Assembly: GCF_000720455.1 (NCBI RefSeq)
Contig: NZ_JOAK01000007.1
Coordinates: 124,001 to 188,000 of the forward strand
DNA length: 64,000 nt
Reading direction: 5' to 3'
Source: Streptomyces virginiae
Lineage (GTDB): Bacteria > Actinomycetota > Actinomycetes > Streptomycetales > Streptomycetaceae
The stretch's first letter is position 1. Every line of letters begins with the position of its first letter. The notes beneath the pieces were generated by a model. That model ran no database searches. It was not told where the DNA came from and saw nothing but the letters and a program-made list of their open reading frames with translations. Below are positions 2 through 62,612 of this stretch, in pieces. The position numbers and the translations under genes were made by a program.

Positions 2-4614
<4,613 letters not shown>

Positions 4615-4618
<4 letters not shown>

Positions 4619-32787: not shown

Positions 32788-33104
32788 CGCAGTGCCTCCG
32801 CGCCGGCCGCCGCGGGAGCGTCGATGATCTCGTCCTCCAGGCGGCAGGCCTCGTCGATGAGCAGGGTTGCCAGGGAGCGCATGAAGTCGGGGGAGAGGTC
32901 CAGCCGTTCGCCCCGGGCCGCGTACGCCTCGCGGACCGCGGTGACCCGCTGCGGCTGCATCATCGGGATGCCGTTGGCCCGCTTGACCTCCGCCACCTCG
33001 CAGCAGACGGCCAGACGGGCCGCCACGAGTTCCGCGAGCTGCTGGTCCAGTGCCTCCAGCCGCTCGCGGAACGGCCGCAGGAGCTCTTCGGGGGTCGCGT
33101 TCAT
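32784..33104 (-). CDS. Chorismate mutase, AroQ type (PapB-like)
   Basis: 106 aa all-helical chorismate mutase. RERLEALDQQLAELVAARL and the VAEVKRANGIPMMQPQRV segment match the AroQ helices with the Arg, Lys and Gln positions that grip the substrate. Small stand-alone mutases of this type serve 4-aminophenylalanine pathways (PapB), rearranging 4-amino-4-deoxychorismate to 4-amino-4-deoxyprephenate. ATGA overlaps on both sides. Confidence 0.92.
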   Translation of the reverse strand: MNATPEELLRPFRERLEALDQQLAELVAARLAVCCEVAEVKRANGIPMMQPQRVTAVREAYAARGERLDLSPDFMRSLATLLIDEACRLEDEIIDAPAAAGAEALR

Positions 33105-34039
33105 CGCGAGGCCTCCAATGCCAGGGCGCGGGCCGCGCCGCGCAGGGAGGGGAGTCCGTATCCGCCCTCCTGGACGAAGACGGTGGGCAGCCGCTGCTCC
33201 GTGACGAGCGCGGCGACGGGACCGAAGACCTCGGGTGCCAGGCTCCAGGAGCCGTGCGGGTCGCCCGCGAGGACGTCGTAGCCGACCGAGACCACCAGGG
33301 CTTCGACCTCCTGGCCGCGCAGGTGCGCCACGGCGTCCCCGACGAGCGCCAGGAACCCTTCCGGGCCGGGGTCGGACCCCGCCCCGAAGAGGCCGGGACC
33401 GGGCTCGAAGACGTACGGGAAGTCGTCGGGCCGGCTGGAGTGCACCGAGGCGAACGGCAGCGTGGGATCGCCCTGGACGCAGGCGAGCGTGCCGTTGCCC
33501 AGGTGGTAGTCGACGTCGAGGATGCCGACCCGGGACGCGCCCTCCTCCTGGAGGGTCCGGGCGGCGATGACGGCGTTGTTCAGGAAGCAGTACCCGCCGT
33601 ACCACCCGGGACCCGCGTGGTGGCCCGGGGGCCGCACCAGCGCGTAGGCGGGCTCTCCCCGGCGGGCCGTCAGCAGGGCCGCGCGGACCGCGGCGGCCGC
33701 CGCGCCCAGTGCCGCGGGCCAGACCCCGCGCGTGACGGGCGTCTCCTGCTCCAGGCCGGGCGCCGCGAACGCGTCGTCGAGGACGGAGTCCGCGCCCTCG
33801 GGCACCCCGTGGCGCAGGTGCTCCAACAGCTCCTTGCCGTGCACGGCCCCGGCGAGGCGCTCGGCCCGGACCGTGTCGTCCGCGCCGGGCGGCGCGAGGA
33901 CCGCCCCGCCGTCGAGCAGCCCGGCCAGGATCCGGTGGATCCGCTCGGGCACCTCCTTGCTGGCCACCTGGGCGCCGCCCGGCTCGACCGTGAAGGGCAG
34001 GGCTTCGGACTCCTCCGGTACCACCACATGCAGGGTCAT
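33101..34039 (-). CDS. Histone-deacetylase-superfamily amidohydrolase
   Basis: 312 aa zinc amidohydrolase of the acetylpolyamine deacetylase/HDAC class. The paired histidines are His140-His141 (RPPGHH), zinc ligands Asp177 and His179 (DVDYHLGNGT), a later Asp in GYDVLAGDP, and the transition-state Tyr in EGGYGL; all are present. It sits between chorismate mutase and an N-acetyltransferase, overlapping both by 4 nt. The pair suggests that an amine is acetylated during biosynthesis or inside the cell and later freed by this enzyme. Confidence 0.9.
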   Translation of the reverse strand: MTLHVVVPEESEALPFTVEPGGAQVASKEVPERIHRILAGLLDGGAVLAPPGADDTVRAERLAGAVHGKELLEHLRHGVPEGADSVLDDAFAAPGLEQETPVTRGVWPAALGAAAAAVRAALLTARRGEPAYALVRPPGHHAGPGWYGGYCFLNNAVIAARTLQEEGASRVGILDVDYHLGNGTLACVQGDPTLPFASVHSSRPDDFPYVFEPGPGLFGAGSDPGPEGFLALVGDAVAHLRGQEVEALVVSVGYDVLAGDPHGSWSLAPEVFGPVAALVTEQRLPTVFVQEGGYGLPSLRGAARALALEASR

Positions 34040-34524
34040 GACAGGTCCTTGATCACGCGCGGGCCGATGACGCGGAAGCCGGAGCGCTCGTAGAAGGCAA
34101 GCGTCCGGGGATACGAGGGGAACTGCTCGGCCGGCAGGCAGACTTCGACCCGGCGCACGCCGTCGGCGGCGCACAGCGCGTCCAGCTCGGCCAGCAGCAG
34201 GGCGGCGACGCCCTTGGACCGCAGACCGGGCTCCACCCACAGTTCCTGCACGTGCCGGTACGGCGCGGCGAGCCGCAGCGCGGTCTGGGTGGTGTACCCC
34301 AGCACGCCGGCCACCCGTCCCTGCCCGTCCCGTGCGACCAGCACCCCGGCGCCGTCCCGGCCGGCGATGGCGTCCGCCACCGCCGCACCGAGCCCCGGGA
34401 CGGTGTGCGAGGCGTCCCCGCGCAGCTCCCGCAGGAGCGCGGTGACGGCATCGGCCACCGCCTGCGCCTCCTCGGGCCTGGCCGGCCCCGTCTCGTAGCC
34501 CGTCTCGAATTCCACCGTGCTCAT
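34036..34524 (-). CDS. GNAT N-acetyltransferase
   Basis: 162 aa single GNAT domain. The acetyl-CoA-binding motif is ELWVEPGLRSKGVAALLL (about residues 94-111), with a C-terminal YERSGFRVIG strand. Positioned between the ADC synthase and the deacetylase gene. Plausible substrate: the ring or alpha-amine of an amiclenomycin precursor, giving temporary protection or self-resistance (inference). Confidence 0.9.
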   Translation of the reverse strand: MSTVEFETGYETGPARPEEAQAVADAVTALLRELRGDASHTVPGLGAAVADAIAGRDGAGVLVARDGQGRVAGVLGYTTQTALRLAAPYRHVQELWVEPGLRSKGVAALLLAELDALCAADGVRRVEVCLPAEQFPSYPRTLAFYERSGFRVIGPRVIKDLS

Positions 34525-37401: not shown

Positions 37402-38628
37402 ATGCCCCACAAGGTGATTCTGGCGCTTCTCGCAATCGGCTCCTTTGCCGTCGGCACGGACGGCTTTGTCATCAGCGGGATTCTTCCGCGCATCGCCGGT
37501 GAGCTGGACGTGTCCGAGCCGATGGCCGGGCAGCTCGTCACGGCCTTCGCGCTGAGCTACGCGATCAGCGCGCCGGTCCTGATGACCCTGACCGCCGGGC
37601 TGTCCCGGCGCGTCATGCTGCGCGGTTCGATGCTGGCCTTCCTGCTCGCCAACCTGCTGGGCGCGCTCGCCCCGACCTACGGGGTGCTGATGGCGGCCCG
37701 GATCCTGGCGGGGATCAGCGCCGCCCTCTACATGAACACCGCCGCGGCCACCGCGACGGCGCTCGCGGGGGAGCGGTACCGGGGACGGGCGGTCTCCATG
37801 ATCATCGGCGGCCTGACGGTGGCGACGGCACTCGGCGTGCCCGGCGGCACGCTGGTCGGGCAACTCGGCAGCTGGCGCCTCACGCTGGCGCTGGTCGTGG
37901 TGCTGGCCCTGCCGGTCTTCATCGGCCTGTTCGTGGTCCTGCCCGCGGTGCCGCAGCCGCCCGCGATCAGCATGCGGGACCGGGTGCGGATCGGTGCGCA
38001 GCGCCCGGTGCTGCTGGCCGTCCTGGCCAATCTGTTCGCGGTCGCCGGCTGCTTCACCGTCTTCACCTACCTGGCGGCCTTCACCCGCGCCACCACGGGC
38101 ATGGACGACGCCCGGGTGAGCATCGTCCTGCTGGTCTTCGGCGTCGCGGGGGCGGTCGGCAACGCGGTCGGCGGCCGGCTCAGCGACCGCGTCGGAGCGG
38201 AACGCACCTTCACCGCCTCGGTGTCGGGCGTCGCGGTGACCATGGCGCTGCTCGCGGTGCTGTCGAGCTTCTTCGCCTCCGGATCGGTGGCGGTGGTGGC
38301 CGTCTTCCTCGCCGTGACGGTCGCCTGGGGGACGGTCTACTGGGCCGAACCGCCCACCGCCATCCACCGCGTGCTGGACCTGGCGGCGACGGCCCCGAGC
38401 GTGGCCATCTCCGTCAACAGCTCCGCGTCGTACCTCGGCGTCGCCCTCGGTGGCGCGGTCGGCGGCGCGGTCCTCGACCGGCTCTCGCCGGCCGCCCTCG
38501 CCTGGACGGGCGCGGGGCTGGAGCTGATCGCCCTGGCCCTGGTCGTCCTGCCGAAGGTTCGCGCGGGCGGCAAGGGCCGGGCCGGCAAGCCCGCCGGTGC
38601 GGTGCGGGAGCCCGTGCCCGAAGTGTGA
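37402..38628 (+). CDS. MFS drug/H+ antiporter (DHA1 type)
   Basis: 408 aa, about 12 hydrophobic segments. ARILAGISAALYMNTAAATATALA and the GGTLVGQLGSWR segment are typical of DHA1 efflux proteins (AraJ/CmlA-like motif C region). ATG 37402 follows a GGGAGG site by 4-5 nt. First gene to the right of the divergent control region. Candidate self-protection exporter for the product of either operon. Confidence 0.88.
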   Translation: MPHKVILALLAIGSFAVGTDGFVISGILPRIAGELDVSEPMAGQLVTAFALSYAISAPVLMTLTAGLSRRVMLRGSMLAFLLANLLGALAPTYGVLMAARILAGISAALYMNTAAATATALAGERYRGRAVSMIIGGLTVATALGVPGGTLVGQLGSWRLTLALVVVLALPVFIGLFVVLPAVPQPPAISMRDRVRIGAQRPVLLAVLANLFAVAGCFTVFTYLAAFTRATTGMDDARVSIVLLVFGVAGAVGNAVGGRLSDRVGAERTFTASVSGVAVTMALLAVLSSFFASGSVAVVAVFLAVTVAWGTVYWAEPPTAIHRVLDLAATAPSVAISVNSSASYLGVALGGAVGGAVLDRLSPAALAWTGAGLELIALALVVLPKVRAGGKGRAGKPAGAVREPVPEV

Positions 38629-38730: not shown

Positions 38731-38973
38731 GTGGCTAACGACGACGTTTTCGACCGGCTCACCACCTGCGCCGTCGACGTCCTGCAGGTCAAGGCCGAGT
38801 CCGTGACCCCGGACGCGAACCTGACCGACGACCTGGGCGCCAGCAGTCTGATCCAGGTCGAGCTGGTGATGGCCGTCGAGGAGGAGTTCGGCATCTCGGT
38901 GCCCGACGAGTCCGTCGAGGAGATCCAGACCGTCGGCGACCTGCACCGACTGATCCTGTCGCTGGTCGCCTGA
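38731..38973 (+). CDS. Acyl carrier protein
   Basis: 80 aa, a discrete fatty-acid-type ACP. The phosphopantetheine serine is in DDLGASSLIQVELVM (the second Ser), and the acidic helix II/III sequence (VEEEFGISVPDESVEEI) is typical. GTG 38731 has a strong GGGGGAGG site about 10 nt upstream. Its stop overlaps the KS start (TGATG), so carrier and ketosynthase are co-translated. It probably carries the chain handled by the KS and the oxoamine synthase. Confidence 0.93.
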   Translation: MANDDVFDRLTTCAVDVLQVKAESVTPDANLTDDLGASSLIQVELVMAVEEEFGISVPDESVEEIQTVGDLHRLILSLVA

Positions 38974-40154
38974 TGAAGAGCGAGGCAGAGTCCGCACGCC
39001 GCGTCGCGGTCACCGGTCTCGGTGTCGTGAGCGCCTGCGGCACGGGGGCGGAGGCCTTCTGGGAGGGCCTCTTCCGGACACCGCCCGACGGCCACCGGGA
39101 ACTGACGGACTGGGACCCGTCACCCTGGCTGGACGTCCGGGAGGCCCGGCACACCGACCGGTTCACCCAGTTCGCCGTCGCGGCCGCCGACATGGCGTAC
39201 CGCGACTCGGGCCTGACGGAGGTGGACGCCGAACGCAGCGGCGTCGTCGTCGCCACGGCCCTCGCCGGCGTCAGCACCTTCGAACGGCAGAGCGTCATCC
39301 ACCACGAGCGCGGCGGCAGGCGGGTCTCCCCCTTCCTCGTGCCCATGATGATGGCCAACGCCGCCGCCGCGACCGTGGCCATGCGCCAGGGCTGGCGGGG
39401 TCCGTGCGAGAGCCTGGAGACCGCCTGCGCCGCCGCCACCCACGCCATCGGGCACGCGGCACGCATGATCGCCGACGGCACCTGCGACCGGGTCCTCGCC
39501 GGCGGCACCGAGGCGGCCATCACCCCGACCATCGTGGCGGGGTTCACCAACATGCGGGCCCTGTCCTCGTCCGGCCGCACCCGGCCCTTCGACGCGGAAC
39601 GCGACGGCTTCGCCATCGCCGAGGGCGCCGCGGTGCTCGTCCTGGAGGAATGGGACACGGCGGTGGCGCGCGGCGCCACCATCTACGGCGAGGTGCTCGG
39701 CTCCGGCAGCACGGCCGACGCGCACGACATCACCATGCCCGCGCCCACCGGCGCCGACGCGGCCCGCTGCATCCGCCTGGCCCTCCAGGACGCCGGGGTG
39801 CGCCCGGAGGACGTACGGCAGATCAACGCCCACGGAACCGGCACCCTGCGCAACGACGAGGCGGAGACCAACGCCATCCTGTCGGTCTTCGCGGACTGCC
39901 CGCCGGTGACCTCCACCAAGGGGGCCACCGGGCACGCCTTCGGCGCGGGCGGGGCGTTCGAGGCGGTCGCGGTGCTCCTGTCCATGCGACACGGCGTGAT
40001 ACCCCCGACCGTCGGCCTGACCGCGCTCGACCCGGCGCTCGCCGTGGACGTGGTGACCGGCGAGGGCCGCAAGTGGGAGCCCGGGCCGTCCCTCACCCAG
40101 TCGTTCGGCTTCGGCGGCCACAACGGCGTCCTCGTCCTCGGCCCTGCCGGATAG
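38973..40154 (+). CDS. Beta-ketoacyl-ACP synthase, FabF type
   Basis: 393 aa. Active-site Cys152 in ETACAAATH, His in NAHGTGT and the second His in KGATGHAFGAGG; all catalytic residues are present. It starts RRVAVTGLGVVSACG, the normal FabF opening. One discrete KS with its own ACP suggests a short chain is built or extended outside primary fatty acid synthesis. Downstream oxoamine synthase starts 16 bp later. Confidence 0.93.
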   Translation: MKSEAESARRVAVTGLGVVSACGTGAEAFWEGLFRTPPDGHRELTDWDPSPWLDVREARHTDRFTQFAVAAADMAYRDSGLTEVDAERSGVVVATALAGVSTFERQSVIHHERGGRRVSPFLVPMMMANAAAATVAMRQGWRGPCESLETACAAATHAIGHAARMIADGTCDRVLAGGTEAAITPTIVAGFTNMRALSSSGRTRPFDAERDGFAIAEGAAVLVLEEWDTAVARGATIYGEVLGSGSTADAHDITMPAPTGADAARCIRLALQDAGVRPEDVRQINAHGTGTLRNDEAETNAILSVFADCPPVTSTKGATGHAFGAGGAFEAVAVLLSMRHGVIPPTVGLTALDPALAVDVVTGEGRKWEPGPSLTQSFGFGGHNGVLVLGPAG

Positions 40155-40170
40155 CGTTCGGAGCGAAGCG

Positions 40171-41334
40171 ATGGAAACAGAGCGACACAGCGATCCGCAC
40201 GACGTCTTCGCGTGGATCGACGACAGCACCCGGCGCCGGGACCGGGCGGGCCTCACCCGCCGGGTCCAGGTCCGGGGCCCGCGGCCGAACGTGATCGACT
40301 TCGGCGGGAACGACTACCTCGGCCTCACCCGCCACCCCGACGTGGTCCACGCGGTGGCCGACGCCTCCCTGACCTGGGGCGCCGGGTCGACCGGCTCCCG
40401 GCTCGCCACCGGCACCACCGAGGTGCACGTCGAACTGGAGCGTGAACTGGCCGAGTTCACCGGGGCGGAGGCCGCACTGGTCTTCTCCTCCGGCTACCTG
40501 GCCAACCTGGGCGCGGTGACCGTACTGGCCCGCCCCGGCACCCTGATCGCCTCCGACGCGTTCAACCACGCCTCCCTGATCGACGGCTACCGCCTCTCCG
40601 GCGCCGACGTGATCGACACCGAGCACGCCGACCCGCAGGCGCTGGAACGGGTGCTCGCCGCGCGGGAACAGCAGCGCGCGGTGGCGGTGACCGAGTCGGT
40701 GTTCTCGGTCGACGGCGACCTCGTCGACCTCCGCGCCGTCCTCGACGTCTGCCGCCGGCAGGGCGCCGGACTGCTCGTCGACGACGCGCACGGCTTCGGC
40801 GTCATCGGCGAGCGCGGAGAGGGCGCGGTGACCGCCGCCGGCCTGGCCGGCAGCCCCGACGTGGTCACCACCATCACCCTGTCGAAGTCCCTGGGCGCCC
40901 AGGGCGGCGCGGTGATCGGCCCCCGCCGGGTCGTCGACCACGTCATGAACATGGCCCGCAGCTTCCTGTTCGACACCGGGCTCGCCCCGGCGTCCGCCGC
41001 CGGGGCCCTGGCGGCGCTCCGGGTCCTGCGCGCCGAGCCGGACCGTCCGGCACGTACCCGCGCGGTCGCGGTGGCCCTCGCCGAACGCCTCACGGCGGCC
41101 GGCCTGCCGGTGACCGAGGCACAGGCGGCCGTGGTCTCCGTCCGCGGACCCTCCGCGGCCCAGACCGCGCAGTGGGCGGAGAACTGCCTGGCCGACGGCG
41201 TCAAGGTGGCGTGCTTCCGCCCGCCGTCGGTGCCCGACCGGTTCTCCCGCATCCGGCTCACCTCACGGGCCGACCTGACCGAGGCGGAGATCGACCGCGC
41301 CATCGACGTGGTGGTCAAGCACAGTCCCTGGTAG
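40171..41334 (+). CDS. 8-amino-7-oxononanoate synthase-like alpha-oxoamine synthase
   Basis: 387 aa PLP enzyme. FGGNDYLGLTRHP near the start, SDAFNHASLIDGYRLSGAD, DDAHGFGVIG and the PLP lysine Lys239 (TLSKSLGAQGG). It condenses an amino acid with an acyl thioester with loss of CO2; in biotin synthesis pimeloyl-ACP plus alanine gives 8-amino-7-oxononanoate (KAPA). KAPA feeds BioA, the enzyme amiclenomycin inhibits, which makes this gene's location notable. It is either a biotin-branch enzyme or makes an analogue. ATG 40171 has GGAG about 7 nt upstream. Confidence 0.88.
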   Translation: METERHSDPHDVFAWIDDSTRRRDRAGLTRRVQVRGPRPNVIDFGGNDYLGLTRHPDVVHAVADASLTWGAGSTGSRLATGTTEVHVELERELAEFTGAEAALVFSSGYLANLGAVTVLARPGTLIASDAFNHASLIDGYRLSGADVIDTEHADPQALERVLAAREQQRAVAVTESVFSVDGDLVDLRAVLDVCRRQGAGLLVDDAHGFGVIGERGEGAVTAAGLAGSPDVVTTITLSKSLGAQGGAVIGPRRVVDHVMNMARSFLFDTGLAPASAAGALAALRVLRAEPDRPARTRAVAVALAERLTAAGLPVTEAQAAVVSVRGPSAAQTAQWAENCLADGVKVACFRPPSVPDRFSRIRLTSRADLTEAEIDRAIDVVVKHSPW

Positions 41335-41385
41335 GGCAGCCGACCCGGGGCGGACGACGGCCCGGACCGAGTGACGGAAGGCGTC

Positions 41386-42927
41386 ATGACGATCGCCAGT
41401 GGGTTCCTCACGCACACCACCCGGTCACCCGACCGGGCCGCCCTCGCCGTCGGCGACGGGACCGGACGACGGTGGAGCTACGACGCGCTGCGGCGCGGCG
41501 TACTCGCCGTCGCCCGGGCCCTGCGCGCCGAGTTCGGCCCGGACCCGGACGCCGGCGTCCGGATCGCCGTACTCCTCGGCAACCGCGAGGAGTTCGCGCG
41601 GATATTCCTCGGCGGCGCACTCGCCGGCATCCCCGTCATGGTCCTCGACCCCGCATGGAGCGGCGCCGAACTGGGCGCCGTGCTGCGGGACGCGCCGCCC
41701 GCACGGCTGTTCTGCGACTCCCCCGGAGGGCCGGTCGCCCGGTACGCCGACCCCGCCACGCTCGTGGACGTCACCGGATCCGGCTTCGAGGCGTGGCTGC
41801 GCCGCCACGGGACGCCACAAGACCCTTCCCCGCACGCGCAGTTGCCGCCCGTACCGCACGACAGGCCCTTCTACGTGGGCTTCACCTCCGGGAGCACGGG
41901 CCGCCCCAAGGGGGTGGTCCGCTCGCACCGCTCCTGGCTGCGCACCTTCGACCGCTACACCGCCGAGTTCGGCATCGGCACGGCCGACACCGTCCTGCTG
42001 CCCGGCTCGCTGGCGCACTCGCACTTCCTCTTCGGCCTGATGCACGCCCTGAACGTCGGTGCGGCCGTCCGGCTGATGCCCGCCTTCGACGCGGGCCGCG
42101 CGCTCGAAGACGTCGAGCGGCACGGCGTCACCCGGCTCTACCTGGTGCCGACCATGTTCCAGGCACTGCTCGAACACGCCCGCCGGCACCCGGGCCGCAG
42201 CTTCCCCCAGGTGCGCTCGCTGCTCTCGGTGGGCGCCAAATGGTCCCCGGCCCGACGCGCCCTCGCGGGAGAGCTGTTCCCGAACGCCGACGCCGTGGAG
42301 TTCTACGGAGCCACCGAGCTCAGCCTCGTCTCGGTGCTGCACGGCGACGACGACGGGCCGAAGGAGTCCGTCGGCAGGCCGGTGGCCGGGGTGGAGCTGT
42401 CGCTGCGCTCGCCCACGGGCGAGGAGGTCGGCGCCGGCGAACCGGGCCGGGTGCACGTCCGCAGCGACATGCTCTTCACCCGCTACCTGTCCGCCGAGGA
42501 CGGCGGAGCCCCCGACGAGGACGGCTGGTTCACCGTCGGGGACATCGGCCGGATCGACGAGCGCGGCTACCTGCACCTCGTCGGCAGGCAGAAGGGCATG
42601 CTGATCAGCGGCGGGCTCAACGTGCACCCCGAGGAGGTCGTCGCGGCCCTGCTCCGGCTGGAGGAGGTCGAGGAGGCCGCCGTCGTGGGACTGCCCGACG
42701 AACACTGGGGCGACCTGGTGTGCGCCGTCGTCCGATGGCGGCAGGGGACCCGCCTCGGCCTGGCGGAGGTACGCGACCGGGCCTCGGCCCACGTGTCGCG
42801 GCAGAAGTGCCCCCGGCGGCTCTTCGAGACGGAGGAGCTGCCCCACACACCGAGCGGAAAGATCGACCACGGGCGGGTGCGCAGCGCCCTCCTGGAGGGT
42901 CGGCACGACATGCGGGAGGTTCTGTGA
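41386..42927 (+). CDS. Acyl-CoA/acyl-AMP ligase
   Basis: About 513 aa ANL enzyme. P-loop FTSGSTGRPKGVV, YGATE in the adenylate-binding motif, GDIGRIDERGYLHLVGR hinge and C-terminal HTPSGKIDHGRV with the catalytic Lys. It activates a carboxylic acid to an acyl-adenylate and loads CoA or the adjacent ACP. ATG 41386 is favoured by GGAAGG 5 nt upstream; an in-frame GTG lies at 41371. Context suggests an alkyl or dicarboxylic (pimelate-like) substrate, unproven. Confidence 0.9.
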   Translation: MTIASGFLTHTTRSPDRAALAVGDGTGRRWSYDALRRGVLAVARALRAEFGPDPDAGVRIAVLLGNREEFARIFLGGALAGIPVMVLDPAWSGAELGAVLRDAPPARLFCDSPGGPVARYADPATLVDVTGSGFEAWLRRHGTPQDPSPHAQLPPVPHDRPFYVGFTSGSTGRPKGVVRSHRSWLRTFDRYTAEFGIGTADTVLLPGSLAHSHFLFGLMHALNVGAAVRLMPAFDAGRALEDVERHGVTRLYLVPTMFQALLEHARRHPGRSFPQVRSLLSVGAKWSPARRALAGELFPNADAVEFYGATELSLVSVLHGDDDGPKESVGRPVAGVELSLRSPTGEEVGAGEPGRVHVRSDMLFTRYLSAEDGGAPDEDGWFTVGDIGRIDERGYLHLVGRQKGMLISGGLNVHPEEVVAALLRLEEVEEAAVVGLPDEHWGDLVCAVVRWRQGTRLGLAEVRDRASAHVSRQKCPRRLFETEELPHTPSGKIDHGRVRSALLEGRHDMREVL

Positions 42928-44123
42928 ACGGGCAGCTGCCCATCGTCGCGGCGGCGCGGCGTACCCCGATCGGCCGGATCGGCGGCGCCTTCGCCACCAC
43001 CCCGATCCACGAGCTCCTCAGCCCCGTCCTCACGGCGCTGCTGGAAGACCTGGGCATCACCGGGGCCGACGTCGACGACGTGATCGTCGGGAACGCCGGC
43101 GGCTCCGGGGGCAACCCCGCCCGCTACGCCGCCCTCACCGCCGGCCTCGGCATCGAGGTGCCGGCGACGACCGTGGACCGGCAGTGCGGCAGCGGCCTGG
43201 AGGCCGTCAACCTCGCCGCCCGGCTCGTGGCGTCGGGGGCCGGGGACGTCATCCTCGCGGGCGGCGCGGAGAGCGCCAGCACCGCGCCCTGGCGGGTGGA
43301 GCGCCCCGCCGTCCCCCACGGGACGCCGCGCTTCTACGCCCGCCCGCACTTCGTGCCCGCCGAGTACGGGGACCCCGACATGGGGGTCGCCGGCGAGAAC
43401 GTGGCACGGCGCGGCGGGATCAGCCGGGAGCGGCAGGACCGCTTCGCACTGGCCAGCCACCGCAAGGCGGTCGAGGCGGCCCGCTCGGGGCGCTACGACG
43501 CCGAACTGGTCCCGGTACGGGTCCGTGTGGGCAGGGCCGGCGCGGTGGCGGTGGCGGCGGACGAGTGCCCCCGCCCCGACACCAGCATGGAGAAGCTCGC
43601 CCGGCTGGGACCCGCGTTCGTCGAGGGCGGCACCGTGACCGCGGGCAACTCCTGCCCGGTCAACGACGGTGCGGCGATGGTCGCGGTCGTCTCCGAGCGC
43701 AAGTTCCGTGAGCTGGGGCTGTCCGCGGGACTGCGCGTGGTCGACTCCGCGGTGACGGGAGTCGACCCGGTGATCCTCGGCTGGGGGCCGGTGCCGGCGG
43801 TGCGGCGGCTGCTGAAGCGCAATCCCGGACTGGAGCTGGCCGACATCGAGGTGGTTGAGTTCACCGAGGCGTTCGCCGGGCAGGTGCTGGCCTGCCTGGA
43901 CGAGCTGGGCATCCCCGAGGAGAGCGTCAACCGCGGCGGCGGCGCACTGGCGCTCGGCCATCCCTGGGGCGCCTCCGGGGCCGTACTGGTGACCCGGATG
44001 TTCTCGGACATGTTCGGGACCGCCGACCCGGTGGCGGGCCGGGCCCGTTACGGCCTGGCCACGCTCGGGGCGGCGGGCGGCCTCGGCATCGCCACCCTCT
44101 TCGAACGCCATCCGGCCGACTGA
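42924..44123 (+). CDS. Thiolase-family protein lacking a catalytic Cys
   Basis: 399 aa with full thiolase architecture. The nucleophile Cys88 (DRQCGSGLEA) and His346 (ALGHPWGASGA) are present, but the C-terminal base Cys, normally in a CxGGG motif, is Gly382 (TLGAAGGLG), and the usual NEAFA motif reads TEAFA. It may therefore not catalyse ordinary Claisen condensation or thiolysis and could have another acyl-transfer role. Starts at GTG 42924 with GTGA overlap of the ligase stop. Confidence 0.88.
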   Translation: MNGQLPIVAAARRTPIGRIGGAFATTPIHELLSPVLTALLEDLGITGADVDDVIVGNAGGSGGNPARYAALTAGLGIEVPATTVDRQCGSGLEAVNLAARLVASGAGDVILAGGAESASTAPWRVERPAVPHGTPRFYARPHFVPAEYGDPDMGVAGENVARRGGISRERQDRFALASHRKAVEAARSGRYDAELVPVRVRVGRAGAVAVAADECPRPDTSMEKLARLGPAFVEGGTVTAGNSCPVNDGAAMVAVVSERKFRELGLSAGLRVVDSAVTGVDPVILGWGPVPAVRRLLKRNPGLELADIEVVEFTEAFAGQVLACLDELGIPEESVNRGGGALALGHPWGASGAVLVTRMFSDMFGTADPVAGRARYGLATLGAAGGLGIATLFERHPAD

Positions 44124-44162
44124 CGCGGGCCGGCCGGACGGCGCGCTGCGGGAGCGGCGGGG

Positions 44163-45407
44163 TCAGCCCCGCCGCACCAGCACCTGGAGCGGGGCGCGGA
44201 AGGACAGCAGCGCCAGCATCTCCGGCGAGGACTCGGGGCAGAAGCGGAGGTCAGGAAACCGCTCGGCGGTCATCCGCATCACCACGTCGGCCTCCATCCG
44301 GGCCAGTTCGGCGCCGGAGCAGCGGTGGCGTCCGATGCCGAAGGACAGGTGCTTGCGCACGTTGGCCCGGTGCGGACAGATCTGCTCGGGGTTCTCGAAG
44401 ACCTCGGTGTCCGAGCCGGTGGACGACAGCATCAGCAGCAGCGGAGCCCCTGCCGGGAGATCGACACCGGAGAGCGTCATCGGCCGGCCGGTGACCCGGC
44501 GCCAGGTGGTGATGGGCGGGTCCCGCCGCAGCACCTCCTCGGTCCACGGCTCCACGGTCGCCGGCTCGGCGGCGAACCGCTGCCAGAGGCCGGGTTCCCG
44601 CAGCGCCCTGCGGTACATGGTGCTCAGCATCTGGGTGGTCGTCATCTGACCGGCGATGATCATGAAGTAGACCACGGCCGCCTTCTGGGTCACCCCCAGC
44701 GGCTCCCCGTCCGGCAGCCGGTGCGCGGCGAGTGCGCCGAGGAGCGTGCCCTCCTCGGGCGCGGGCTTCGACACCAGGTCGGTGAGCCAGGAGTAGAACT
44801 CGGCGGCCTCGTGGGCCAGCGCCACCTCGCGCTCGCCGCGCGGCCGTCCCCAGAAGAGCTCCAGGGAGGCGTCGCTCCAGCGGGCGAGGGTGTCGATGTC
44901 CACGTCGATGGCCGATTCCAGGCCGAGCAGCCGCAGCATCACCCGGAAGGGAACGTCCCGGGCGATGGTCGTCGCCAGGTCGCAGACGCCGTCGGCGGCG
45001 AGCCGCTGCTCGACGTCGTCGAGCGCCTCCGCGACGACCTTCTCGACCATCGGCACCGAGGCGTTCACGGCCTGGGCGTTGAACAGCTTGGTCATGATGC
45101 GCCGATAGCCGGCGTGGCTGTCCGAACCGTTGTTTGCAAGCGTTTGCGGGAGGTCGAACTTGACCCGTGCCAGAACGCGCAGCGTCTGCACGGAGAATCG
45201 CCCTATTGCGTCGATCGCATTGTCCGGAAGGAAATTCTCCGGATCGAGCAGAATGGTGCGTACGTCCTCGTACCGGCTGATCAGCCAAAGTCCCGTGTTC
45301 TCGTCGAACTTCACGGGTTCGTGTTCTCGGAGCGCCGCCATCGCCGGATACGGGTCCAGCGCATACCCCTGGTCGAACAGGTCAACACTGTCAACGGGCA
45401 TTGCCAT
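44163..45407 (-). CDS. Cytochrome P450
   Basis: 414 aa. Heme loop LSFGIGRHRCSGAELA with ligand Cys363, ExxR as EEVLR, and an I-helix AGQMTTTQ instead of the usual AGxxTT. Convergent with the thiolase gene 40 bp away. ATG 45407 directly follows an in-frame GTG at 45410. Given the neighbours (ACP, KS, oxoamine synthase, acyl ligase), an acyl-ACP or biotin-like substrate is possible, as with BioI, which cleaves acyl-ACP to pimeloyl-ACP; sequence alone does not show this. Confidence 0.9.
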   Translation of the reverse strand: MAMPVDSVDLFDQGYALDPYPAMAALREHEPVKFDENTGLWLISRYEDVRTILLDPENFLPDNAIDAIGRFSVQTLRVLARVKFDLPQTLANNGSDSHAGYRRIMTKLFNAQAVNASVPMVEKVVAEALDDVEQRLAADGVCDLATTIARDVPFRVMLRLLGLESAIDVDIDTLARWSDASLELFWGRPRGEREVALAHEAAEFYSWLTDLVSKPAPEEGTLLGALAAHRLPDGEPLGVTQKAAVVYFMIIAGQMTTTQMLSTMYRRALREPGLWQRFAAEPATVEPWTEEVLRRDPPITTWRRVTGRPMTLSGVDLPAGAPLLLMLSSTGSDTEVFENPEQICPHRANVRKHLSFGIGRHRCSGAELARMEADVVMRMTAERFPDLRFCPESSPEMLALLSFRAPLQVLVRRG

Positions 45408-45537
45408 CACGTCAATTCCACCTTCCCCCGGGTCGACGGTATCAAGTCGTCATGATCACGTTGAATACCAGCCGGGGAAGAAAACCTGTGAGACGCGTCT
45501 CGTGCGGAGCCCGCCCGGGGCGGGGTCCGCCGACGGC

Positions 45538-45617: not shown

Positions 45618-46178
45618 CTACTGCTGGACGGCGTCGAGCGGGTTGCCGTTGTTGATGCCGGCCTTCTTGGCGGCGTCGATGGAAGCGGCCGACGGCTTCA
45701 CCTTGGTGAAGGTGTCGTGGCCGACCAGCGTGGACTTCCAGTTGTTGGCCTCGGTGGTGCCCGAGGTCAGCAGCCACTGGGTGTTGATGCGGGCCTCGGA
45801 GCCGGCGACGTACTGGCCGCTCCACGTGGTGGCGGAGTGGGCGTTGCGGTAGTTATTCTTCCACGCCACCGTCCAGCCGAGGGCGGTGCCGCTGCCGTCG
45901 GTGGCCGGGGTGCTGTCGTAACGACCGGTCAGGACGTAGCGGCTCTCGGCGTTGCCGACGGCCGACTCGTAGGTGCCGGTGAGGCTGCCGTCCGCGCCCG
46001 CGGTCACGATGAAGGTCGAACCGAGCTGGTTGTACCAGGTGCCGGTGATGCCGGCCTCGGCGACGGCGGCCTGGGCCTTGGTGTCCTTCGACGGGTCCGC
46101 GGAGGCGCTGGCCGTAATACCGACGGTGGTCAGCGATACGGCAATGGCTGCAACGACGATCTTGCGCATGTGCGACAC
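45618..46178 (-). CDS. Streptavidin (secreted biotin-binding protein)
   Basis: A close relative of streptavidin. The usual precursor ([13 protein letters not shown]..., 183 aa) starts at ATG 46169; GTG 46178 is better placed for the AGGGGAG site (about 8 nt versus 17), giving 186 aa. A signal peptide ends at SASA, mature protein starting DPSKD. In mature numbering the biotin contacts Asn23, Ser27, Tyr43, Ser45, Trp79, Ser88, Thr90, Trp92, Trp108, Trp120 and Asp128 are all kept. Compared with sequences I remember, it differs at S6T, A38S, A63T, G98A, A100S and A119N. A tetramer that binds biotin almost irreversibly outside the cell, starving competitors. It lies beside genes for a biotin-synthesis inhibitor. 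Confidence 0.98.
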
Positions 46179-46474: not shown

Positions 46475-49400
46475 TCAAAGGCGGCTGAAAAACGCCCCTG
46501 TTGGGGCGGCCCGGACACCCTCGGAGGGTGCCCCGGCCGGCCCTTCCCGCAACCGGTCGACCACCGCCAACCGCGCCTCCACGTCCAGGTTCCACAGCCG
46601 TACGGTGCCGTCCGTGCTGCTGCTCGCCACCGTCCCCCCGTCGGGGGCGAAGGCGACGCCCCACACCGCATTCGTGTGTCCGGAAAGCGCCGCCAGCGTG
46701 CGCCGGCCGGCCACGTCCCACAGTCGTACCGTCCGGTCGTTGCCGCTGCTCGCGAGCGTGCGGCCGTCGGGGGAGAAGGCGATGCCCCGCGCCGAGCCGG
46801 TGTGTCCGGCCAGCGCCGCCTCGAATCGGTGGCGGCGCGCGTCCCACAGCCGTACGGTCCCGTCGTTGCCGCTGGTTGCGAGCGTCCGCCCGTCGGGGCT
46901 GAAGGCCACGCCCCGGACCGCACCCGTATGGCCGGTGAGGGCGGCCAGCGGCCGGCGTCCGGCCACGTCCCACAGACGGACGGTCAGGTCGTCGCCGGCG
47001 CTCGCCAGCGTGCGCCCGTCGGGGCTGAACTCCACGTCGTTGGCGAAATCCGTGTGCCCGCCGAGCGTGGCCAGCCGACGGCGCGAGACGACGTCCCACA
47101 GCCGGACCGTGCCGTCCGATCCGGCCGAGGCCAGCGTCCGGCCGTCGGGCGCGAAGTCCACGGCGAACACGGTCCCGCCCTGGCCGGCCAGCGTGGCCGA
47201 CGGGCCCCCCGCCGCGACGTCCCACAGCCGGACCGTGCCGTCGGAACCGGCCGAGGCCAGCGTCCGCCCGTCCGGCGAGAAGTCCACCGAGAACACCGTC
47301 TCGCTGTGCCCCTCGAAAGTCGCCACGACCCGGCGCCCCGCCACGTCCCACAGCCGCACCGCGTGATCCGCCTCCGCGGTGGCCAGCAGCTTCCCGTCCG
47401 GGCTGTACGCGGCGTGCCAGACCTCCGTGAACGGCCGTGACGCCAGCACCGCGCCCCGCAGGTCCCACAGCACCACCGACTGGTCGAACCCGGCCGTGGC
47501 CACGAGCGCGCCCCGGCCGTCCACGGCCACCCCGAGCACGTAGTCGGTGTGCCCGGCGAGCGTCGCCGTCAGCCGGCCGCCGGCGACGTCCCACAGCCGG
47601 GTCGCGCCGTCGCCCCCCGCGCTGATCACCGTCGTCCCGTCCGGTGTGAAGGCGACGCCGTTGACGTCGTCGCTGTGCCCGGTCAGCGTGGCCGTCGTGC
47701 GGCGCCCGGCCACGTCCCACAGCCTCACGGTCCGGTCGACGCCCCCCGTGGCGACCGTACGGCCGTCCGGGGCGAACGCCGCCCCCAGCACCTCGTCGGT
47801 GTGCCCGGACAGCACCGCCAGCGGCGCGGCCGCCACCGGATCCCACAGCCGTACGCTCCGGTCGGCGCCGGCCGAGACCAGCGTCCGGCCGTCCGAGGCG
47901 AAGGCCAGGGCGTTGACCCGCCCGGTGTGCCCGGCCAGGGACGCCACGGACCGGTACTCCCCGGCGCTCTCCCACAGCCGGACCGTCCCGTCCGGGCAGC
48001 CGGTCGCCAGGGTCCGCCCGTCCGGCGCGAAGGCCACCGTCCGCGAGCCCGTCGTACTCGCCGGGAGCACCGCCTTCGTACGGCCGTCGGCGGTGTCCCA
48101 GAGCCGGGCCGGCCCGTCCGTCGAGACCGCCGCGAGGGTCCGGCCGTCCGGGCTCACGGCGACGGCGCGGACCCGCCCGGCCATCGTGAACGTCGCGGTC
48201 GTCCGCCGGTCGGACACCCGCCGCAGGGTCACCGTCCCGTCGGAACTGCCCGTCGCCAGAATGCCGTTGTCCGGCCCGAAGGCCACCGCGTTGACCGGCC
48301 CGCGGTGCCCGCCCAACCGGGCCACGAACGGCTGCGACTGCGTACTCAGCAGCGCTCCGCGCGCCTCGCTCGTCCGCGCGGTCCGGTACGCGTCGCCGGC
48401 GAGCAGCATCGAGGCCTCCGGCTGGCCCGCGGCCAGCGCCGCCGACTGCAGGGCGAGCGCCCGCGAACGGGCCGTGCGTTCCTGGCCGAGCGCACCGGCG
48501 CGCTGCTGGTACGCCAGCCCGCCGGCGCCCACGGCCAGGACCAGCAGGACGACCAGCGTGGCCAGCATCCGCTGGCGCAGCCGCGCCTGCCGGGAGGCCT
48601 GCCGCTCCCGGCCGTCCTGCGCCGCCCGGCTCTCCCGCAGGAAGGCCGCCTCCAGGGGCGCGAGGCGGTCCCCGCCGTCGAGTTCGTCCGCCCAGGAGCT
48701 GGCGGTGTCCAGCCGCGTCCCCCGGTAGAGCGCCGACGGATCGCGGCCCTCGCGCTCCCACTCGACAGCCGCGTGGGCCAGCTGCTGGTGGATCAGGAGC
48801 CCCGCCCGGTCGGCGCGGATCCAGCCGCGCAGCCGTGGCCAGGCGTGCAGCAGGGCCTCGTGGGTGATCTCCACCGTGTCGCTGTCCATGGTGATCAGGC
48901 GGGCCCGTACGAAGGCGTCGAGCGCGGCCGCGGCGGGACCCGCGTCGACCAGCTGCTCCATGAGTGCCGTCCGGCTCATCCGCCGCCGCGTCGCACCCGT
49001 ACCGTCGGCGACGTGCACCAGCCGCACCAGGACGCGGCGGAGCGTGTTCTGCTCGGCGGGGTAGAGGCGGCCGAACACCTCCTCGGCGGTCCGGGCGACG
49101 GCCCCCTGGATGCCGCCGGTGCGTTCGTATCCGGCGACGGTCAAGGTGGCGCCCTCGCGCCGGCGCCAGGTGGCCATCAGCGCGTGGGAGACCAGCGGCA
49201 GCATGCCGGAGGGCGTCGCTCCGCCCGACGGCCCGTCGCACGGCCCGACGTCGCGCAGCAGCAGCGGGACCAGCCCCGGTTCGAGGGCGAGACCCGCGAG
49301 CCGGGCCGGGCGGGTGATCGATTCCCGCAGCTCCGCGGGCGACATCGGCGGCAGGACGAACAGCCCGCCGGTGAAGACCGGGGCCAGCTCCGGGAGGTCC

Positions 49401-50329
49401 AGGCAGTTGCCGGAGAAGTCGGCCCGTACGCCGAGCACCACGACGGCCGGGTCGTGCGGGACGCCCTCCGGGCCCGGGACCGCCAGCGCGCAGAGCACCC
49501 GTACGAACGCGCGCCGCTCGTCCTCGTCGGTGCAGAGGGTGAACAGCTCCTCGAACTGGTCGACCAGCAGCACCGGCCGCAGTGGCGGCGGACCCAGGCC
49601 CGGCCCGGCCGCCGGGGGCGGGTCCGACAACCGGTGGACCGCTTCGAGCAGGGCGTGGGGGCGTTCCCGCAACTCCCGTGCCGTGATGCCGAGATCGCCG
49701 CCCAGCGCCTTCGCGGCGCGGCCGAGCAGTTCCTCCAGGGGCTGTGCGGTGGGGGTGAACCCGACCACGGGCCACGTGTCGGCGCCCGGCATCGGGAAGC
49801 CGCCGCCGCGCAGGGCCGGTACGAGGCCGGCGTTGAGCAGGGAGGACTTGCCGGCGCCCGACGGGGCGACGAGCATCAGTGGCCCGGCGCCGATCCGCTC
49901 GAAGACCCGTTCGGCCAGCTCGGTGGTGGCCCGCTCCCGGCCGAAGAACCAGCGGGCGTCCCGCGCGGTGAAGGCGGGCAGGCCGCGGTAGGGGCACTCG
50001 CCCTCCGTCCGCGGCCCGGCCACGGCGACGTCGCCGGCGGCACCCTCCGGGGCCTCGGTCTCCCGGGCCATCCGCAGCAGTTCACCCCCCGCCCGCAGGA
50101 CGTCGTCGCAGCGCCGCGCGACGTCGACGGTCACCCGCTTCGAGCCGGTCTCGATCTTGCTCAGGTAGCCCTTGCTGTAGTGCGTCTCGCGCGCGAGGTC
50201 CGCGAGGGACAGGCCGCGTTGCAACCGCAGACGTCTCAGCTGGGCAGGGAAGGGCCGCGCGGTGTCGTCGGACTCCCGCAGCCGGTCGGTCTCGCGCCGG
50301 CGGTCCGGATCCCCCAAAGCATCCCCCAT
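46475..50329 (-). CDS. XRE HTH - STAND NTPase - WD40 repeat protein
   Basis: 1284 aa. An N-terminal XRE-type helix-turn-helix (about 28-90; LSLADLARETHYSKGYLSKIE), then a STAND NTPase with P-loop APSGAGKSS (about 160) and Walker B VLLVDQFEELF (about 260). A single hydrophobic helix (MLATLVVLLVLAVGAGGLAY, about 583) precedes the C-terminal half, where I count 14 LWD-type WD40 blades, enough for two seven-bladed propellers. Such proteins sense a ligand with the WD40 part and switch by nucleotide binding; target unknown. ATG 50329 (MGDALGD) is chosen; the frame stays open upstream without conserved sequence. The repeats are near-identical at DNA level. Confidence 0.93.
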   Translation of the reverse strand: MGDALGDPDRRRETDRLRESDDTARPFPAQLRRLRLQRGLSLADLARETHYSKGYLSKIETGSKRVTVDVARRCDDVLRAGGELLRMARETEAPEGAAGDVAVAGPRTEGECPYRGLPAFTARDARWFFGRERATTELAERVFERIGAGPLMLVAPSGAGKSSLLNAGLVPALRGGGFPMPGADTWPVVGFTPTAQPLEELLGRAAKALGGDLGITARELRERPHALLEAVHRLSDPPPAAGPGLGPPPLRPVLLVDQFEELFTLCTDEDERRAFVRVLCALAVPGPEGVPHDPAVVVLGVRADFSGNCLDLPELAPVFTGGLFVLPPMSPAELRESITRPARLAGLALEPGLVPLLLRDVGPCDGPSGGATPSGMLPLVSHALMATWRRREGATLTVAGYERTGGIQGAVARTAEEVFGRLYPAEQNTLRRVLVRLVHVADGTGATRRRMSRTALMEQLVDAGPAAAALDAFVRARLITMDSDTVEITHEALLHAWPRLRGWIRADRAGLLIHQQLAHAAVEWEREGRDPSALYRGTRLDTASSWADELDGGDRLAPLEAAFLRESRAAQDGRERQASRQARLRQRMLATLVVLLVLAVGAGGLAYQQRAGALGQERTARSRALALQSAALAAGQPEASMLLAGDAYRTARTSEARGALLSTQSQPFVARLGGHRGPVNAVAFGPDNGILATGSSDGTVTLRRVSDRRTTATFTMAGRVRAVAVSPDGRTLAAVSTDGPARLWDTADGRTKAVLPASTTGSRTVAFAPDGRTLATGCPDGTVRLWESAGEYRSVASLAGHTGRVNALAFASDGRTLVSAGADRSVRLWDPVAAAPLAVLSGHTDEVLGAAFAPDGRTVATGGVDRTVRLWDVAGRRTTATLTGHSDDVNGVAFTPDGTTVISAGGDGATRLWDVAGGRLTATLAGHTDYVLGVAVDGRGALVATAGFDQSVVLWDLRGAVLASRPFTEVWHAAYSPDGKLLATAEADHAVRLWDVAGRRVVATFEGHSETVFSVDFSPDGRTLASAGSDGTVRLWDVAAGGPSATLAGQGGTVFAVDFAPDGRTLASAGSDGTVRLWDVVSRRRLATLGGHTDFANDVEFSPDGRTLASAGDDLTVRLWDVAGRRPLAALTGHTGAVRGVAFSPDGRTLATSGNDGTVRLWDARRHRFEAALAGHTGSARGIAFSPDGRTLASSGNDRTVRLWDVAGRRTLAALSGHTNAVWGVAFAPDGGTVASSSTDGTVRLWNLDVEARLAVVDRLREGPAGAPSEGVRAAPTGAFFSRL

Positions 50330-50428
50330 GGCAGTGCGCCCAGGCCGTGAGATGGCGTCGCCCAGGCTACCGCGCGGGGCGGCCGGAAATATGGATCTTC
50401 CAGCCGGTATGACGAGCACAGGAACGTG

Positions 50429-50452
50429 CGGAGCCGCCGCGCGGCGGCTCCG
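50429..50452 (-). terminator. Palindromic terminator of I36-like gene
   Basis: A perfect 24-bp palindrome (12-bp arms 50429-50440 and 50441-50452, rich in GC) lies 22 bp beyond the stop of the small secreted protein gene and before the WD40 gene. Confidence 0.6.
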
Positions 50453-50474
50453 CAGGGCCCTCCTCGGGGGAGCG

Positions 50475-50837
50475 CTAGCGGTTGAGGCGGATCGAGTTGA
50501 CCGGCGTGAGGTCGGCGTACACACCGGTCTTGGCGGCGATGGGGCCGCCGCAGCCCGCGCCGCCCGAGCCGGTGCACAGGTTTGCGGTCGCACCGCCGTA
50601 CTGGTTGTTGAGCACCCAGTGATGCCCGAACTGATTGCTGAGGTTGTGGGCCCCGTACCGGTGGAAGACGTGCGTCGGCTTGACTGCCGGGTTCTGGTTC
50701 TGAGGGTAGATGCACACCGCCCCGTCCGGGCATCCCGCCCAGGCGTCGACCGGCCTGGCCTCCACCGAGGCGCTGAGCGCGATCACCGCGACGACGGACG
50801 TGGCGAGAGCGGCGGCGCCGCGGAACAGCTTGCGCAT
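50475..50837 (-). CDS. Small secreted protein, peptidase-inhibitor I36-like
   Basis: 120 aa. Signal peptide (MRKLFRGAAALATSVVAVIALSAS...), then a Cys-rich domain with GCPDGAVCIYPQ, YGAHNLSNQFGHHWVLNNQYGGA and CTGSGGAGCG. This pattern is found in secreted Streptomyces proteins annotated with I36 inhibitor-like domains. Start ATG 50837 with an AGGGGA site; a longer frame upstream lacks support. Function unproven, extracellular location likely. Confidence 0.8.
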   Translation of the reverse strand: MRKLFRGAAALATSVVAVIALSASVEARPVDAWAGCPDGAVCIYPQNQNPAVKPTHVFHRYGAHNLSNQFGHHWVLNNQYGGATANLCTGSGGAGCGGPIAAKTGVYADLTPVNSIRLNR

Positions 50838-53434: not shown

Positions 53435-53692
53435 TCAGGTGCCGGCCGTCAGGGCGTCGTTGACGAGGTCGAGGAACTCGCGCGGCGACTTGCACTGGTC
53501 CGCACCGGCGGGGAGGGACCGGCCGTGCCGGTTCTCCAGCTCGCCGACGATGCCGAGCAGCCCCAGGGAGTCCAGCCCCCACTCGTCGAACTTCGCATCG
53601 GGCCGGTCCGCCATGACGGCGGGGTCGACGGCGATGCCCGCACCCTTCTTCATCAGCGCGGCCAGCTCTTCCACGGTCAGTCGATCGGTCAT
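53435..53692 (-). CDS. Acyl carrier protein, type II PKS family
   Basis: 85 aa. FDEWGLDSLGLLGIVGELENRHG with the attachment Ser in LDSLG is the pattern of minimal aromatic-polyketide ACPs. It starts 13 bp after the SchA/CurD-like gene with a GAGGAGAAG site. No ketosynthase alpha/beta genes accompany it in this window. Confidence 0.93.
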   Translation of the reverse strand: MTDRLTVEELAALMKKGAGIAVDPAVMADRPDAKFDEWGLDSLGLLGIVGELENRHGRSLPAGADQCKSPREFLDLVNDALTAGT

Positions 53693-53705
53693 GGCGGGCT
53701 TCTCC

Positions 53706-54908: not shown

Positions 54909-55054
54909 CGTTCACACTCCTTCGAGACCACACGGTCGCCACGGGCGGCGCCACCCGAACCGATCGTGGTCCGATGGCGCCGTCGGCGCGAGAGGAGAGA
55001 ACCAAGCGGGTGAACGAGCGAGGGAACACCCGTCGTAGAGGGCATGGAAGAGCC
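54909..55054. promoter_or_regulatory. Divergent promoter region, SchA-CurD-like / FAD hydroxylase
   Basis: 146 bp between the outward-facing SchA/CurD-like and hydroxylase genes; must carry both promoters. No clear sigma-factor boxes recognised. Confidence 0.4.
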
Positions 55055-62025: not shown

Positions 62026-62212
62026 ACTTCCTCGGTCTTTCTGCGAGTACCCGATGAACCAGGTACGAGGGGAGCAACGTAGCGCCCTGACCAGGCAGTT
62101 CGTGCGCGCAAACGGACAAGCGGGACACAACTTCCGCCGTAGTGACGCAATTCACGCCATGGCTGGATTCATTCCCTGGATGCGGTGCGGCCGGAGGCCA
62201 TCTACTCTGGCC

Positions 62213-62412
62213 GGGCAGCTGGTTCGCCCCGTCCGCCAGGCGGGATGCGTCGTAAGAGGGAACCCGGTGGGAATCCGGGACTGCCCCGCAGCGGTGAGCG
62301 GGAACGACCGCCGTCATACGCACTGGGACCGGAGAACGGTCCTGGGAAGCGACGGCCAGTAGGTGCCCGCCGGGAGACCGGCAGGCGTGCCCGCGAGTCC
62401 GAAGACCTGCCC
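62213..62412 (+). ncRNA. Cobalamin riboswitch
   Basis: Hallmarks in order: GGGAACCCGGTGGGAATCCG (about 62258-62277), CTGCCCCGCAGCGGTGAGCGG, ACGGCCAGTAG-type element and GAGTCCGAAGACCTGCC near the end (62395-62411). GGGCAG (62213-62218) pairs with CTGCCC (62407-62412) to close P1. It lies 200 bp upstream of metE; B12 should switch off the B12-independent enzyme, presumably leaving a B12-dependent one (MetH) to take over. Confidence 0.95.
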
Positions 62413-62612
62413 GTTGCCCGTGCGCGACCCGTCGCGCGCGGAAATCCCGGTGACCTCGTGGGCGGGTCGGCGACACATCAGGCGGGCGACCGCGGGCACG
62501 TACGCGTCACGTACGCACTCCCGCATCCGGTCGAGGTCCGCCCGGTTCGTCATCCCTTCGCGCTCCCGACCCTCACCGGGTCCACAGGAGACAGCTCGCG
62601 AAGGAGAGTTCC

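Follow-up and report, generated by a model that had tools for sequence, protein, structure and literature searches.

A probable alpha-methyl-KAPA cluster beside streptavidin in Streptomyces virginiae and its putatively biotin-linked ligase-thiolase pair

Introduction

Why would a gene cluster that appears to make a biotin antimetabolite carry an acyl-coenzyme A (CoA) ligase and a thiolase-like protein, when a published cluster of the same make-up forms its product without them? The question is raised by a 64,000-nucleotide stretch of the Streptomyces virginiae genome (the window, C7:124001-188000, from an 8.3 Mb assembly in 132 contigs). A group of six genes at 38731..45407 encodes an acyl carrier protein (ACP), a ketosynthase (KS), an alpha-oxoamine synthase, the ligase, the thiolase-fold protein and a cytochrome P450 (P450). 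This is very probably the mkp cluster for alpha-methyl-KAPA (KAPA, 7-keto-8-aminopelargonic acid), located within the 'Streptavidin BGC Nexus' (BGC, biosynthetic gene cluster). We propose, at a probability of about 0.65, that the ligase and the thiolase-fold protein, MkpE and MkpF, are accessory proteins rather than chain-building enzymes. That they serve biotin salvage or scavenging, or self-protection, is a tentative suggestion to which we give slightly less than even odds.

We read the pair as accessory and biotin-linked because both genes are dispensable in the published host, mkpF is missing from one nexus-type relative, the family as a whole is linked to biotin uptake, and the active site of MkpF is non-canonical. 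A published attack on one vitamin pathway by several antibiotics is now seen in another assembly. The sharper point is that two genes whose role is missing or doubtful belong to a pair that adjoins biotin uptake genes in nearly all sampled Actinomycetes loci and in several Alphaproteobacteria.

The mkp cluster and its product

The mkpA-G genes have been reported between two streptavidin genes, in the 'Streptavidin BGC Nexus' of S. virginiae and S. avidinii. Heterologous expression yielded alpha-methyl-KAPA, detected at m/z 202.14, which inhibits BioA; it was lost on deletion of mkpC, mkpD or mkpG and retained on deletion of mkpE or mkpF. The product shifted by +4 Da with valine-d8 and by +2 Da with 13C4-threonine. 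MkpF was described as FabH-like (56% similarity) and the MkpG step as oxidative cleavage, with the BioI step proposed as analogous (PMC13336041). A second paper of 2026 locates the acidomycin cluster close to genes for stravidin and streptavidin (PMC13111796). S. clavuligerus has also yielded alpha-methyl-KAPA, and its pSCL4-less strain did not (PMC5702194).

All six genes of the group are present in the window with the strong third-position GC bias typical of Streptomyces, and the class of each is backed by Pfam and NCBIfam profiles. Two neighbours belong with them, an exporter gene of the major facilitator superfamily (MFS) upstream and a streptavidin gene downstream:

37402..38628, + strand, MkpA-like MFS exporter (PF07690, 135 bits; a 91% identical gene lies upstream of B-C-D in Streptomyces genome G063)
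38731..38973, + strand, MkpB-like ACP (PF00550, 54 bits)
38973..40154, + strand, MkpC-like ketosynthase, FabF type (TIGR03150, 423 bits, below its cut-off of 494; PRK07314, 400 bits, above its cut-off of 387)
40171..41334, + strand, MkpD-like alpha-oxoamine synthase, a BioF paralogue (TIGR00858, 376 bits)
41371..42927, + strand (start at 41371 or at the ATG at 41386), MkpE-position acyl-CoA ligase of the BioY-linked type (PRK07638, 348 bits)
42924..44123, + strand, MkpF-position thiolase-fold protein, second catalytic Cys missing (PF00108, 241 bits; PF02803, 104 bits)
44163..45410, - strand, MkpG-like cytochrome P450 (PF00067, 66 bits; 54-57% conserved in the three non-nexus loci described below)
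45618..46178, - strand, streptavidin, sav1 type (NF047623, 357.7 bits, cut-off 300; streptavidin 5n7x, 363 bits over 183 aa)

The ACP and KS genes share one base and the ligase and thiolase genes share four, so the five forward genes from ACP through thiolase look like one operon, to which the P450 gene is convergent. The candidate pantetheine Ser of MkpB lies within GASSL, the motif being GATSL in the three non-nexus loci. The Cys-His-His motifs can be seen in a five-row alignment of MkpC.

The genes agree with the published mkpA-G in their order and their classes (PMC13336041). The likeness extends to seven genes, of which B, C, D and G are of the same class in both, and to placement between two streptavidin genes together with sta and acd genes, with nda-type genes as in S. 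virginiae; the difference lies in gene F, which is thiolase-fold here and FabH-like in that report. Since a cluster of the same make-up has been published, the group is, by this comparison, a member of a described system, already in print. The first-pass annotation, which rightly placed and classed the six genes, had thought the pathway undescribed. Its proposal of a private route through a KAPA-synthase-like enzyme to a KAPA-like antimetabolite is borne out by the published product, an inhibitor of BioA. Its pimeloyl-ACP chain has to be replaced with a methyl-branched one built from isobutyryl- or 2-methylbutyryl-CoA (PMC13336041). The ligase and thiolase of its gene group are reported dispensable (PMC13336041) and look like a separate biotin-linked pair.

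By analogy with the published cluster, MkpB and MkpC together with host fatty-acid enzymes would build an iso- or anteiso-acyl-ACP from isobutyryl- or 2-methylbutyryl-CoA, and the P450 MkpG would convert the branched chain end to a carboxylate. Isobutyrate and two malonyl extensions give eight carbons, the number in 6-methylpimelate, so that on the iso chain MkpG should oxidize one of the two terminal methyls with no carbon lost. At nine carbons, the chain from 2-methylbutyrate is one too long, and its shortening would require cleavage of a C-C bond. Such dual chemistry fits, by deduction, the published labels: +4 would be one CD3 and one CD kept, and +2 would be what is left of three labelled carbons once one has gone. 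This deduction draws on isoleucine biochemistry. The BioF-like MkpD would then couple the 6-methylpimeloyl thioester with L-alanine to alpha-methyl-KAPA, which MkpA probably exports. The compound would compete with KAPA at BioA and may go on to alpha-methyldesthiobiotin.

The analogous step proposed for MkpG is that of B. subtilis BioI, the P450 that makes a pimeloyl chain (PMC13336041). Among the best 60 of 278 solved P450 matches of MkpG there is no chain named BioI; the closest are 5gwe, 5xjn, 6kbh, 6ldl and 6gii, at 177-192 bits.

MkpD and housekeeping BioF

MkpD belongs to the 8-amino-7-oxononanoate synthase (AONS) family and groups separately from housekeeping BioF. It shares 59% identity with the BioF of the same genome, and its 376 bits against TIGR00858 fall below the cut-off of 426, the genome's own BioF scoring only 380. 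Its nearest solved structures are the 8-amino-7-oxononanoate synthases 7s5m and 3wy7, with which its TLSK region, holding the pyridoxal phosphate lysine, aligns. In a 49-row tree it falls with S. cattleyicolor MkpD in a 31-row clade, split with support of 100/99 from 18 other rows, among them the genome's housekeeping enzyme and six BioFs taken from named genomes. At least 15 homologues reach 79-96% identity among the best 120 of 6696, and 13 of those 15 are from Streptomyces.

The housekeeping genes are grouped elsewhere, with bioD-bioA-bioB and a divergent bioF at C7:87-92 kb. The whole genome has a single bioA above the family cut-off, and no bioA, bioB or bioD match was found in the window. 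Three more BioF-like oxoamine synthases occur in the genome (C3:207796, C40:39387 and C6:431800; 336-378 bits against the bioF model).

More distant MkpD matches were considered as further mkp clusters and set aside. Those at 57-59% identity (L009-L019) lack a matched ACP, KS and P450, and six of them placed in the tree group with housekeeping BioF; a 61% match in Streptomyces sp. BHT-5-2 (L141) belongs to a housekeeping-type bioD-A-B/F locus.

One reading of MkpD can be dismissed here. The first-pass annotation raised the idea of self-resistance, in which the cluster's product is KAPA itself and overcomes a BioA inhibitor by competition, and MkpD is indeed a KAPA-synthase homologue near stravidin-type genes; but this idea finds no support and is very improbable, given that the published product, alpha-methyl-KAPA, itself inhibits BioA (PMC13336041), that MkpD stands in a clade distinct from housekeeping BioF, and that nexus strain G063 has an extra bioA-like gene instead.

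The ligase and thiolase-fold proteins and the link of their family to BioY

The protein at the mkpF position is, by its domains, a thiolase-fold protein and not FabH-like as printed, a new observation here. It carries Thiolase_N (PF00108), Thiolase_C (PF02803) and a weak PF00109 match, and the Pfam scan found no ketoacyl-ACP synthase III (KAS III) domain; this conflicts with the printed FabH likeness, provided that the gene letters follow position. The best 120 of 6481 homologues carry thiolase domains, and the best 60 of 88 solved matches bear thiolase or acetyl/acyl-CoA acyltransferase names.

The active site departs from the canonical one. The nucleophile Cys88 and His346 are conserved in every row of both the homologue set (130) and the tree set (53), and Gly382 replaces the second catalytic Cys, which is Cys378 in the Zoogloea enzyme. 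Gly occupies this column in 126 of the 130 homologues (Cys in two, Ser and Ala in one each). The second Cys is replaced in 48 of the 53 tree rows, which form one clade (100/99); Niallia, L202 and three outgroup thiolases account for the five rows that keep it. In MkpF and the six sequences closest to it, Thr takes the place of the NEAF Asn.

For MkpE the best model is PRK07638, at 348 bits against a cut-off of 518 and 258 bits for the next family. The protein is the best of 76 PRK07638 matches in the genome (347 bits, the next 189), and the model surpasses its cut-off in one of 14 control genomes.

A separate search of 394 Actinomycetes genomes with MkpF gave 35 that match at E <= 1e-90, and all 34 besides the window's own were examined. 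The second Cys is absent in 33 of these 34 relatives, and the NEAF position is Val in 22, Thr in three and Asn in nine. A bioY gene stands beside the thiolase in 32 of the 34 loci, always 1.0-1.9 kb away, and in 31 of the 32 it is upstream on the same strand. The loci also hold bioN (31), bioM (at least 16, at >= 120 bits) and a ligase (at least 31, at >= 100 bits), the last two counts being lower bounds because bit thresholds were applied. As a background control, the bioY queries at the same E-value matched none of 80 BioF loci (1,354 kb; 55 loci of at least 16 kb).

Plasmids extend the picture. At E <= 1e-80, 124 plasmid records match MkpF, most of them from Rhizobium (111) and the others from Azospirillum (5), Sinorhizobium (4), Streptantibioticus (2), Shinella (1) and Niallia (1). 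We examined all five Azospirillum loci, one of the two Streptantibioticus records (both are one plasmid), the single Shinella and Niallia loci, one of four from Sinorhizobium and three of 111 from Rhizobium, and added a Microvirga locus from the MkpE search. A bioMNY set immediately precedes the ligase and thiolase genes in Azospirillum, Streptantibioticus, Shinella, Sinorhizobium and Microvirga. It was also considered that all MkpF-like thiolases might be ordinary beta-oxidation enzymes. This holds for Niallia, where the match lies in an ordinary beta-oxidation operon, and perhaps for L202, where the second Cys is retained and no bioY is present, but not for the BioY-linked clade.

The pair recalls yhfT-yhfS, in which a ligase and a thiolase are likewise connected with the uptake of biotin and its regulation. 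PRK07638, the best model for MkpE, is one that we take to stand for YhfT, and a 2002 proposal by Rodionov is said to have placed the yhfS-yhfT pair in the biotin regulon. In S. aureus, BirA regulates bioY and yhfS-yhfT, the pair being called putative (PMC6391492, PMC7235819), and a review states the same BirA control of a putative pair in B. subtilis (PMC11089781). The likeness is one of class and biotin link, not of direct sequence comparison; in Streptomyces the gene order and the regulation may differ, and in those texts the proteins are described as putative enzymes only. In the open literature searched, we found no papers on BioMNY with a thiolase, on bioY with both a thiolase and an acyl-CoA ligase, on a thiolase with a biotin operon and pimeloyl, or on dehydrobiotin and S. 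lydicus.

What MkpE and MkpF may do

On the evidence above, MkpE and MkpF would be a BioY-linked CoA ligase and a Cys-deficient thiolase recruited from a biotin-uptake or salvage block. Several points weigh against this or against the assignment of the cluster. The dispensability of mkpE and mkpF was seen only in a heterologous host, whose own genes could substitute, and the printed description of MkpF is FabH-like (PMC13336041). Orthology to mkp was assigned here from gene classes, order and neighbourhood, with letters A, E and F given by position. There is no bioY match anywhere in the window, and its own pair thus has no bioY beside it; nor was bioY found in two of the 34 sampled relatives (L124 and L202), and in L176 it lies downstream on the other strand. 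In all three Rhizobium loci examined, of 111 records, the pair has no bioY within 8-10 kb on each side.

The best surviving alternative is that the two proteins supply or salvage (methyl)pimeloyl-CoA, the ligase activating a free dicarboxylate and the thiolase-like enzyme trimming or extending it, to feed MkpD in parallel with the P450. A ligase beside an AONS resembles the BioW-BioF arrangement, and the full block also has an enoyl-reductase/quinone-reductase-like gene and a thioesterase. However, the 34 sampled loci contain no BioF/AONS match at >= 150 bits, the absence of the second Cys casts doubt on canonical thiolysis, and both genes are reported dispensable (PMC13336041). We consider precursor supply unlikely.

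Less probable again is a role of MkpF as a FabH-like starter ketosynthase that joins isobutyryl- or 2-methylbutyryl-CoA to malonyl-MkpB, host FabH masking its loss. That role is stated in the published account (PMC13336041), and a site that lacks the Cys378-type residue may be more KS-like and compatible with decarboxylative condensation. Yet MkpF shows thiolase domains, one weak ketoacyl-synthase match and no KAS III, its best 60 of 88 solved matches are thiolases or acyltransferases by name, the gene is absent from nexus-type G063, its relatives adjoin BioY in 32 of 34 loci, and its deletion had no effect on the product (PMC13336041).

We therefore retain accessory, biotin-linked proteins as the preferred reading. 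A more specific version, which we regard as doubtful, is that MkpE and MkpF are a captured copy of a widespread biotin-linked pair that remodels the acid tail of biotin vitamers. Such remodelling might, with similar reserve, turn imported bisnorbiotin back into biotin with the help of the adjacent reductase and thioesterase, or disarm alpha-methyl or dehydro analogues. If this were true, an antimetabolite cluster would reveal what yhfT-yhfS does; a pair beside biotin antimetabolite pathways offers concrete substrates for testing.

Relatives of the cluster

MkpC relatives (E <= 1e-105) occur in four of 392 sampled Streptomyces genomes: the window's own, G063 (91%), G326 (64%) and G160 (62%). 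Two plasmid records match MkpC at E <= 1e-80, both the S. cattleyicolor megaplasmid, and MkpF relatives (E <= 1e-100) are found in two of 61 relatives' genomes, the window's own included. The first-pass annotation had asked whether these genes also occur in strains with no biotin-related cluster; all four other mkpBCDG loci examined (G063, G160, G326 and S. cattleyicolor) lie amid biotin-related genes.

G063 has a nexus-type locus, with streptavidin, mkpG, E, D, C, B, A, an extra bioA-like gene and then sta- and acd-type genes. No MkpF match was found in the 60 kb examined, and the gap between mkpG and mkpE is about 50 bases. The extra gene (L129, 12902-14179) lies between mkpA and a pabAB-like gene and encodes a class-III aminotransferase 76% identical to the window genome's bioA product; it is possibly a self-resistant BioA copy.

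The three non-nexus relatives carry added biotin synthesis and uptake genes. In G160, G326 and S. cattleyicolor, mkpB-C-D and mkpG adjoin bioB, bioD, a reductase, a thioesterase, bioM-bioN-bioY, ligase and thiolase. A bioA gene is also beside the core in G160 and G326, none being found in the S. cattleyicolor stretch, and no streptavidin match was found in the stretches examined of the three. These loci share the mkp core and extra biotin genes with the mdb cluster of S. lydicus (bioADB and mkp; PMC13336041). They differ from it, as described there, in their bioMNY-ligase-thiolase block with thioesterase and reductase, while the window differs in having no bioA, bioB or bioD match.

Inside the Cys-less clade, the thiolase tree assigns nexus MkpF and the thiolases of S. 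cattleyicolor, G160 and G326 to separate subclades (96/90 and 98/88). With moderate confidence, given long branches and some open forks, this suggests that the ligase-thiolase pair was captured twice beside mkp cores. A single inheritance of the pair with the core was set aside on the same separation, though neighbouring forks are weaker.

The reductase (nearest solved structure 3gms, then MECR-type) and the thioesterase accompany bioMNY-ligase-thiolase in S. cattleyicolor pSCATT (L105), G160 and G326, and the association was also noted in L116, L117, L170 and L171. In Rhizobium the two go with the ligase-thiolase pair while bioMNY is absent.

The surrounding nexus and other genes in the window

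The avidin family matches two places in the genome, C7:121199-121537 and C7:169705-170049, which flank the block. The window contains one streptavidin gene, the second lying about 2.4 kb beyond its edge, and acd-, nda- and sta-type genes occur between the two. These names rest on the classes of the genes and their order rather than on sequence match to published records:

17-4618, acd-type nonribosomal peptide synthetase (NRPS)
4519-6324, acd-type AMP-binding ligase
6401-7756, acd-type P450
7888-8595, acd-type phosphopantetheinyl transferase
about 9820-10599, nda-type thioesterase
10569-15977, nda-type polyketide synthase
15974-21064, nda-type NRPS
from 21126 (3-deoxy-D-arabino-heptulosonate 7-phosphate synthase) to 36530 (PabAB-like protein), sta-type genes

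A histone-deacetylase-like protein (33101-34099, - strand) sits amid the sta-type genes, and a large nSTAND1-WD40 repeat protein (46475-50593, - strand) is encoded directly past the streptavidin gene. Genes for ACP-like, SchA/CurD-ABM and FAD-binding monooxygenase proteins at 53435-56728 resemble part of an aromatic polyketide cluster, with no ketosynthase in the neighbouring frames scanned. No tRNA was found in the window, and the Rfam scan of it gave a single hit, a cobalamin riboswitch (87 bits; 62203-62428, + strand) upstream of a cobalamin-independent methionine synthase gene.

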